Assembly (NCBI RefSeq): GCF_040371545.1
Contig: NZ_AP029048.1
Location: 744,001 to 808,000, forward strand
From: Synechococcus sp. M16CYN
Lineage (GTDB): Bacteria; Cyanobacteriota; Cyanobacteriia; PCC-6307; Cyanobiaceae
Length of the DNA stretch: 64,000 nt
Direction of reading: 5' to 3'
Shown here piece after piece: positions 1,605-56,920 of this stretch. The stretch's first letter is position 1; each line of letters starts with the position of its first letter. Under the pieces are notes generated by a model. That model saw nothing but the letters and a program-made list of their open reading frames with translations, had not been told where the DNA came from and did not search any database. Made by a program: the position numbers and the translations under genes.

Positions 1605-3233
1605 ATGGAATTAACGCTCTGGACTTATGAAGGTCCCCCGCATGTTGGGGCCATGCGAATTGCAGCTTCGATGAAAGGTGTGCATTACGTGTTGCACGCT
1701 CCGCAGGGCGATACCTATGCCGACCTTCTTTTCACCATGATTGAACGACAAAACAATCGACCACCCGTCACCTACACTACATTCCAAGCGCGTGACTTAG
1801 GCGGTGATACCGCAGAGCTCGTCAAGCGTCACGTGCGTGAAGCCGTTGAACGTTTCCGGCCCGATGCCCTTCTCGTTGGGGAAAGCTGCACAGCGGAATT
1901 GATTCAAGATCAACCCGGTGCTCTTGCTGAAGGGATGGGCTTGGACCTTCCGGTTGTGAGCCTTGAGCTTCCCGCCTACAGTAAAAAAGAAAACTGGGGA
2001 GCATCTGAAACCCTGTACCAATTGGTGCGTGGGCTTCTTAAGAATCACTATGTTCAAAGCGAGAGCCGAGATCCAACAGCCTGGATATCAGAAAATCGAA
2101 GGCCCTGCGTAAATCTGATTGGACCTTCACTCCTGGGATTTCGCTGTCGTGATGACGTAATCGAAATCAGTAGGCTTCTAGCGAACCATGGCATCAACAT
2201 CAATGCCGTAGTTCCACTTGAGGCTACGGTGGCTGATATTTTGCGGTTGCCACAGGCAGACTTAAACGTTTGTCTTTATGCGGAAATCGCTGAAACCTGT
2301 TGCAGTTGGATGGAACGCCAATTTGGACTCCCATTTACTCGAACGATACCCATTGGCGTGGGTGCCACAGCTGATTTTTTGGAAGAGATTCACGGACTCC
2401 TCGGGATGAATCCACCTGATGCAAAAGAAGGGCAACGTAGTTCCAGATTGCCCTGGTATTCTGCATCCGTCGACTCGACATATCTCACCGGCAAACGTGT
2501 TTTTATTTTTGGAGATGGAAGCCACGTTTTAGCTGCTGCACGAATTGCCAAGGAAGAACTGGGTTTTCAAGTGGTAGGATTGGGCACTTACAGCCGGGAG
2601 ATGGCTCGTCCGGTGCGAGCTGCAGCAAAAGCTTTAAGGCTGGAAGCCCTGATAAGCGATGACTATTTGGCCGTGGAAGCTGCGATGGCTGAGGCCGTGC
2701 CGGAACTAGTGCTCGGGACGCAAATGGAGCGTCACTGTGCCAAACGTTTAGGAATTCCTTGTGCGGTGATCAGTACGCCTATGCATGTACAAGATGTACC
2801 GGCACGATTTAGCCCTCAAATGGGATGGGAAGGTGCCAATGTGATTTTTGATAACTGGGTTTACCCACTAATGATGGGTTTGGAAGAGCACCTAATCGGG
2901 ATGTTCCGTCATGATTTTGAATTTGTGGACGGACATCAAAGTCATCTAGGCCATCTGGGTGGCCTACAAGCAGCTCAAGCTCAGGTTGACGAAACAGCTG
3001 CCACAGTAAGAGAACACAGTGGGAACAGTACTGACTCCCCAAGCCATTCCAAAGTTGGCGTCGCGACGCCAACTTTGGAATGGACCCTTGATGGCGAAGC
3101 CGAATTGAAAAAAATTCCATTCTTTGTACGCGGCAAGGTGCGGCGGAACACGGAGATCTTTGCTAAAGAACAGGGCATAGCCCGTATTGATAGTGAAATT
3201 CTCTATGACGCCAAAGCTCACTACGGCGCTTGA
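1605..3233 (+). CDS. chlB: Light-independent protochlorophyllide reductase subunit B (ChlB)
   Basis: ChlB is the partner of ChlN; it contributes to the [4Fe-4S] cluster and forms the substrate pocket. The 542-residue product opens with the typical [18 protein letters not shown] and contains the GESCTAEL segment of the family. Its C-terminal domain (about residues 495-542: [14 protein letters not shown] to YDAKAHYGA) is also typical. Between the catalytic core and this domain lies a variable linker, and in it a 40-bp perfect palindrome encodes residues of about 481-493 ([12 protein letters not shown]). The frame runs cleanly through the palindrome, so the protein should be functional. It sits between chlN and chlL. 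Confidence 0.97.
3044..3083. repeat. 40-bp perfect palindrome inside chlB
   Basis: Bases 3044-3063 (ccattccaaagttggcgtcg) are exactly the reverse complement of bases 3064-3083, giving a spacer-free inverted repeat of 2 x 20 bp. It lies in frame in the hypervariable linker of chlB. It could form a cruciform or a long mRNA hairpin. No second complete copy was found in the window; ten bases of it recur by chance in ilvB near 21651. Confidence 0.95.
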
Positions 3234-53468: not shown

Positions 53469-54857
53469 ATGACCCTTGCTGCCATCAAATCCGCGACGCC
53501 GGACATCGCTCTGTTGGCAGGTACCGGAGGACAGGTAGAAAACATGGTGTCTACCACTGCTGAGAGTGAAGCAAAAAAAGTCTCTACACATCCAAACAAT
53601 GCGCGTGTCGCGAACAAAGATTTGGGTGCGGCCACAGAAGAATTCATCGCTAATTTCGATGAAGCCTCAGAGACGTTGAGCGAATTGACAAGGGAGACAC
53701 GCGCAAAGGCGAAGACCGTGAAAATCATGGCTAAAAAGGCAATGGCCAGAAAAGCAACAGCAACAAAATCAAAAGCCGCCCAGTTGAAGGCGGCTACAGC
53801 GAAAGTGTCAGTGACCGAATCCACAGCCGAAGAGAAGGCAAAAAAGGCAGCGGCTGAAAAGGAAGCCAAGGCCAAAGCCCTGGCCAGCATCAAGATTGGT
53901 CCGAAAGGGGTATACACGGAGGATTCCATCCGTGTATACCTGCAGGAAATCGGGCGAATCCGCTTACTTCGTCCGGACGAAGAGATTGAGCTGGCCCGCA
54001 AAATCGCTGATCTTCTTCATCTCGAGGAGCTCTTTGCTCACTTTGAAAGCGATAACGGTCGCGAGCCCGACAAGAAGGAGTGGGCAGCGTTAGTGGGGAT
54101 GCCGCTGATCCGTTTTCGTAGGCGTCTCATGCTTGGTAGGCGCGCTAAGGAAAAAATGGTCCAGTCGAACCTGCGTCTTGTCGTTTCAATTGCTAAAAAA
54201 TATATGAACCGAGGATTGAGCTTCCAGGATCTAATCCAGGAAGGAAGTCTCGGCTTAATTCGCGCAGCAGAAAAGTTTGATCATGAGAAGGGCTATAAGT
54301 TTTCTACCTATGCTACCTGGTGGATTCGTCAAGCTATTACTCGTGCTATCGCCGACCAAAGCCGCACGATTCGCCTGCCGGTCCATCTTTACGAGACAAT
54401 CTCACGAATTAAAAAGACCACCAAGGTGCTCAGCCAAGAGTTTGGCCGGAAACCAACTGAGGAAGAGATTGCTGAGTCAATGGAGATGACCATTGAAAAG
54501 CTTCGCTTTATAGCCAAGAGTGCTCAGTTGCCCATCTCTCTTGAAACACCCATTGGCAAAGAGGAAGATTCTCGCTTAGGTGACTTCATTGAGGCCGATA
54601 TTGAAAACCCTGAACAGGATGTAGCCAAGAATTTGCTTCGAGAAGACCTTGAAGGCGTTCTTGCAACCCTTAGCCCTCGTGAAAGAGATGTTCTTCGACT
54701 GCGTTATGGCCTGGACGATGGACGTATGAAAACACTTGAGGAAATCGGTCAAATCTTTGATGTAACCCGCGAGCGTATTCGCCAAATCGAAGCCAAGGCG
54801 TTGCGCAAGCTACGTCATCCCAATCGAAATGGTGTACTCAAGGAGTACGTCAAGTAA
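53469..54857 (+). CDS. rpoD: Principal RNA polymerase sigma factor (RpoD/SigA)
   Basis: The housekeeping group-1 sigma factor. The 462-residue product opens with an Ala/Lys-rich region of ~140 residues (many AKA, AAEKEA and KAATA repeats) of the kind found in marine picocyanobacteria. Then come region 1.2 ([16 protein letters not shown]), region 2 ([20 protein letters not shown], then [11 protein letters not shown]), region 3 and region 4.2 ([16 protein letters not shown]). ATG 53469 is preceded by a purine-poor leader with no strong ribosome-binding site. It stands alone between divergent priA and hemC. Confidence 0.97.
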
Positions 54858-56870: not shown

Positions 56871-56920
56871 TTGAGTAGTTTTTAATATTTTTTATCCAAA
56901 AAATATTAAAAACTACTCAA
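56871..56920. repeat. 23-bp perfect inverted repeat, 4-base loop
   Basis: The left arm 56871-56893 (ttgagtagtttttaatattt then ttt) pairs perfectly with 56898-56920 around atcc. The hairpin is very AT-rich and ends with T runs on both strands, so it could be a bidirectional terminator or a remnant of a small mobile element. It overlaps the stop of a possible minus-strand relic. Confidence 0.9.

Follow-up and report, generated by a model that had tools for sequence, protein, structure and literature searches.

In Synechococcus sp. M16CYN, a small-genome cyanobacterium whose genes and relatives suggest a marine-type picocyanobacterium, the chlB gene, which codes for subunit B of the light-independent protochlorophyllide reductase, contains a perfect, spacer-free palindrome of 40 bp (positions 3044-3083, forward strand). 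Judging from the comparison with related genes, this palindrome very probably arose by quasi-palindrome correction, through template switching in replication, and was fixed in a dispensable linker of the ChlB protein. In this type of mutation the nascent strand takes the opposite arm of an inverted repeat as its template, and the repeat grows more perfect (PMC7202029). The palindrome is most likely a naturally occurring case of a mutation type that is already known, rather than an element that was inserted. The positions are those of the window, the whole stretch of 64,000 nucleotides that was analysed.

In the assembled sequence the palindrome is placed in frame within chlB. The left arm (3044-3063) and the right arm (3064-3083), both given on the forward strand, have 20 nt each, are 100% complementary and lie 0 nt apart. 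The chlB open reading frame (ORF; 1605-3233, forward strand) is intact and encodes 542 aa, which match the NCBIfam ChlB equivalog with 1023.5 bits. The Pfam matches of the protein are Oxidored_nitro (aa 12-422) and PCP_red (aa 493-537). The stretch between them (2871-3080, forward strand) holds the variable linker, and the palindrome is found at its end, coding for the end of S480 through residue 493. The last codon of the palindrome (TGG) encodes the residue at which the PCP_red match begins. The description given by the initial annotation, an in-frame palindrome of 2 x 20 bp in a variable linker, is borne out on both counts: the linker varies in sequence and in length among 29 aligned chlB loci. 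An intrinsic terminator was also considered as a candidate and ruled out, since the palindrome is followed by ACCCTTGATGG, with 147 coding bases left before the stop codon.

With uniform bases, a spacer-free 2 x 20 palindrome is expected by chance about 6e-8 times per 64 kb and 2e-6 times per genome. Hairpins were surveyed in 864 kb of the source genome, composed of the window and forty 20-kb stretches and corresponding to about 44% of the genome. In these 864 kb the chlB palindrome is the longest with a spacer of at most 1 (the next one has arms of 16 bp) and also the longest with a spacer of at most 8 within an ORF of at least 120 aa. Long hairpins as such are not unique to chlB, since the surveyed sequence also contains four whose arms are longer still (21-23 bp, with spacers of 2-7); none of these lies in an ORF of at least 120 aa. 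The suggestion that a perfect palindrome of this length should be unstable in replication carries little weight at 40 bp, since the strong instability known in E. coli concerns palindromes that are much longer.

The origin of the palindrome can be traced in the relatives. ChlB was found in 57 of the 59 genomes searched, source genome included. The closest comparison is provided by a clade within the same genus, made up of the four genomes G004, G027, G006 and G014. Together these carry five chlB loci, two of them in G004; four of the copies are full length, and a contig end truncates the fifth. The clade mates and the window share a longer type of linker, ending in V-A-V-A-T-x-x-L-E-W. The core pattern is present in 5 of 400 genomes of the family, source included, all of them in the genus. 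The linker comparison took in 31 loci, 29 of which were readable (the exceptions being L010 and L022), and 6 of the 34 genus genomes had no readable linker in it. Outside the six-locus clade 23 linkers of the genus were readable, and none of them has an arm above 7 bp, with spacers up to 8. For the linkers of other genera, 28 loci were put in (26 plus L010 and L022, L010 being of the same genus), and the motif was read in 19 and missed in 9. Arms of 8-9 bp occur in two of these 19 (L132, 9 bp with a spacer of 2; L156, 8 bp with a spacer of 3), and arms of at least 8 bp are absent from the remaining 17. As a separate observation, the draft genome G004 holds two different chlB loci, on contigs C89 and C25, with a p-distance of 0.025 to G027 for one and of 0.056 to G006 for the other; G004 is perhaps a mixed bin.

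The five clade-mate loci have an inverted repeat on the same axis. Of its inner 10 pairs (3054-3073, forward strand), 8 form in three loci, 9 in one and all 10 in another, so that this core ranges from imperfect to perfect; of the outer 10 pairs only 2-3 form, which is the level of chance. In the window, pairing is complete at all twenty positions. The perfect palindrome on this axis reaches 20 bp in G027 and 18 bp in the C89 locus of G004. The notion that the palindrome is ancestral to the related chlB genes therefore divides into two parts: the core is ancestral in the clade and the full 40 bp is not.

The change in the outer part is one-sided. The outer 10 bases of the right arm, which code for the conserved Leu-Glu-Trp, have 8-9 of 10 bases in common with the five clade-mate loci and are the likely template (donor), whereas the outer 10 bases of the left arm share only 2-3 of 10 and would be the rewritten (recipient) part. 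In the same way, in all four full-length relatives the left arm is closer to the reverse complement of their right arm (14-16 of 20 bases) than to their left arm (8-11 of 20). A sliding test that subtracts the direct match from the reverse-complement match places the left arm first against G006 only, because direct identity is low in other segments of this rapidly evolving linker. Under a stricter sliding score, which requires at least 15 of 20 and more than the direct match, the left arm succeeds in three of the four comparisons, the exception being G014; a few segments elsewhere (gene positions 76 and 583-586) narrowly exceed the threshold as well.

The inner part changed on both sides. Three inner pairs differ in both bases among the six sequences. 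The covariation score of 0.140 exceeds the mean of 0.067 obtained by shuffling (0 of 500 shuffles reach it) and the maximum of 0.056 in slid registers; these values come from just six related sequences. The further pair types, another measure of covariation, are not exceptional, being reached by 63 of 500 shuffles. The inner change can also be read, from the alignment, as the loss of one base and the gain of another, mirrored in both arms.

Template switching would account for these features in the following manner. The starting state would be a clade chlB gene with an inverted repeat around the V-A-V-A-T-A coding sequence, with arms of roughly 7-10 bp, such as that seen in the relatives. After copying the right arm, with its conserved L-E-W, the nascent strand would pair through the self-complementary core. 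The right arm would then replace the proper template for the next bases, and the left arm would take on its reverse-complement sequence. The footprint of this process is visible in the alignment, and from it we infer the act itself, as well as that it was mostly the work of one event. If the switch took place within one strand, the growing strand would have run from right to left, i.e., as the complement of the coding strand. The frame probably survived because the net length change was small (1-2 codons relative to the nearest relatives) and because the rewritten residues lie in the unconserved linker. No function need be assumed, and the predicted mRNA hairpin would be a by-product. The nearest relatives are about 24% diverged from the source in chlB; consequently no intermediate is visible, and several steps are possible.

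A wider form of this explanation would make the lineage, which is without exonuclease VII (ExoVII) in a genus with no SbcD over the cut-off in the 15 genomes searched, a natural template-switch mutator. Imperfect in-gene repeats would be driven to perfect palindromes, and protein segments such as the guanylate kinase P-loop region and the linker of ChlB would have been rewritten in single steps. This extension is considered unlikely. The large ExoVII subunit XseA (TIGR00237) exceeds the cut-off in 14 of the 15 genus genomes searched, and the source genome, with no candidate, is the sole one lacking it; the control search gave matches in 12 of 14 named genomes, 9 of them over the cut-off. SbcD (TIGR00619) is over the cut-off in none of the 15, with one weak match in G007, and its control search gave matches in 13 of 14 named genomes, 8 of them over the cut-off. 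The old place of xseA corresponds to L221 9072-11600 (G000 C1:1931072-1933600). The neighbours are still in place there, with orf116 flanking one side and orf115 plus the rRNA operon the opposite one. Between these conserved neighbours G006 carries hrpB, xseA and xseB. In the source genome this interval has no match to hrpB or xseA and retains two weak traces: one of xseB, spanning 19 aa (E 0.004), and one of the next ORF, spanning 39 aa (E 0.0003).

ExoVII, like ExoI, limits quasi-palindrome mutation and template switches in E. coli. It may be speculated that its loss favours template switching; a literature search for work joining ExoVII with quasipalindromes or template switching returned none. 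Prochlorococcus MED4 is likewise listed as having lost xseA and xseB (PMC551534). The numbers of in-gene palindromes were compared with those of G006 and G014 together, both of which keep xseA, using stop-free frames of at least 120 aa as ORFs. The 864 kb of the source genome contain seven in-gene palindromes with arms of at least 12, including that of chlB. With arms of at least 10 there are 24 in 641 kb of ORF in the source genome and 29 in 722 kb in the two relatives (3.7 vs 4.0 per 100 kb, p 0.89), with arms of at least 12 there are 7 and 4 (1.1 vs 0.55 per 100 kb, p 0.37) and with arms of at least 15 there are 3 and 1 (p 0.35). None of these comparisons gives a significant excess over G006 and G014, and the link to ExoVII therefore stays speculative. 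As a hypothesis, the loss of ExoVII in this genome offers a possible mutator for free-living cyanobacteria.

Three further in-gene palindromes of the source genome were compared with up to four relatives: one with 16-bp arms (L088 2998-3033; relative available: G027), one with 13-bp arms in murE (L092 2042-2067; G004, G006 and G014) and a hairpin with 15-bp arms in a guanylate kinase, a family assigned by profile match (L093 19843-19876; all four). L095, L178 and window positions 53909-53940 were left out of this comparison. The last of these, within an open frame of 485 codons, is an inverted repeat whose perfect 12-bp arms are separated by 8 nt. The relatives form 9 of 18 pairs at L088, 7-8 of 13 in murE and 9-11 of 17 in guanylate kinase, so that all three are less perfect than in the source genome. 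These loci were chosen for their perfection here, and lower perfection in the relatives is thus partly expected and shows no excess.

The guanylate kinase palindrome is the clearest of the three and, on the evidence of the aligned arms, displays the same one-sided pattern as that of chlB. Its right arm has 12-14 of 15 bases in common with all four relatives and its left arm 9 of 15, and the left arm is identical among the four relatives. The arm change turns G-K-G-T-L-V-K into G-K-G-I-L-I-Q, i.e., it alters three residues in a segment that presumably adjoins the P-loop.

Selection for a structure is the next explanation, in which an mRNA hairpin or the DNA palindrome would tune the translation of ChlB or the expression of the downstream chlL. 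The initial annotation had raised mRNA folding at this site, and a strong hairpin is indeed predicted: the 40-mer folds with -30.2 kcal/mol (z -9.5), and in a context of 120 nt the z value is -5.4. The pairs that change on both sides would also suit a selected stem. Against it stand the 40-mers of the five clade-mate loci, with z values from +0.2 to -1.6, which are no better to slightly better than shuffles, and the absence of arms above 7 bp from the 23 other linkers of the genus that were read. The predicted stem is strong here and weak in the clade mates, which makes a selected hairpin very unlikely, and a conserved functional mRNA hairpin is not supported, since stem stability is not kept across the five clade-mate loci.

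Gradual point mutation, with steps taken by chance or under weak selection and with no template switching, is very improbable. The divergence of chlB leaves time for many changes, and the linker evolves fast. Nevertheless, under independent change the probability that all 20 of 20 pairs form at this axis is 5e-12 to 6e-11, a post hoc value that is uncorrected for the genome search and for which the divergence was drawn from the same bases.

A newly inserted palindromic element, as the initial annotation had proposed, is scarcely credible, and in its simple form is refuted. A mobile or selfish element of the Rickettsia palindromic element type could have entered the ChlB linker in frame: the palindrome is indeed in frame within a variable linker, and palindromic elements exist in Rickettsia genes (PMC6649704). 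Such an element has many copies per genome and forms a block that is absent from orthologs, whereas the chlB palindrome is single copy and all of its 40 columns align gaplessly with the five clade-mate loci. The search for further copies, which that annotation had named as a check, found no second copy of the arm in the whole source genome with up to 3 mismatches allowed. In 257 Gb of other genomes the 20-mer arm has one exact match, which is chance (0.47 expected), and the palindrome does not continue there. Nineteen viral contigs contain 17 bases of the arm, and the palindrome continues in none of the 19. The gene has 542 codons compared with 540-541 in the four full-length clade mates, only 1-2 codons more. 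Finally, the core is homologous to coding sequence of the relatives, and a shorter inverted repeat is found on the same axis in all five clade-mate loci. An artefact of assembly or amplification, such as the inverted chimeras that arise in some amplification methods, is very improbable, given that the frame is intact, that both arms align with orthologs and that shorter palindromes lie on the same axis in other genomes.

Quasi-palindrome correction, the preferred explanation, has counterparts in other organisms. In the thyA and lacZ quasipalindrome reporters of E. coli, as proposed for chlB, one arm templates the other and an imperfect repeat becomes more perfect; there the mutations are fresh and directly observed, whereas the chlB event is deduced from species comparison, with the arms approximately doubled in length and the frame kept (PMC7202029). 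Homogenisation of arms in coding DNA also alters neighbouring amino acids in protein genes of Saccharomyces cerevisiae (PMC8604942), a case that concerns yeast strains, while chlB is a bacterial gene with a spacer-free pair of 20-bp arms. The mitochondrial genes of nematomorphs (hairworms) likewise carry long, perfect, in-frame inverted repeats in functional genes, for which template switching was proposed (PMC6649704). Those palindromes are numerous, measure up to 284 bp and have both arms in conserved protein regions, in contrast to the one 40-bp case of chlB, which lies mostly in an unconserved linker. Hairpins produced by template switching in RNA genes are similar in that one event gives a perfect stem and apparent compensatory changes (PMC8794818); they differ in that chlB is a protein gene without evidence of a selected stem. 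In the open-licence literature, judged by titles and the openings of abstracts, no template-switch coding palindrome was found for Synechococcus or other cyanobacteria.

The chlB gene would thus offer an evolutionary snapshot, in which the relatives hold the imperfect repeat and the source genome the enlarged perfect one, with identifiable donor and recipient arms. Several adjacent residues can change together without selection in this way, which may mislead tests for positive selection.

Elsewhere in the window, an intergenic hairpin with perfect, AT-rich arms of 23 bp and a 4-nt loop is found at 56871-56920, approximately 590 bp after a hemC-like ORF. Its centre is shared with a hairpin of G006, and the flanks are unrelated.
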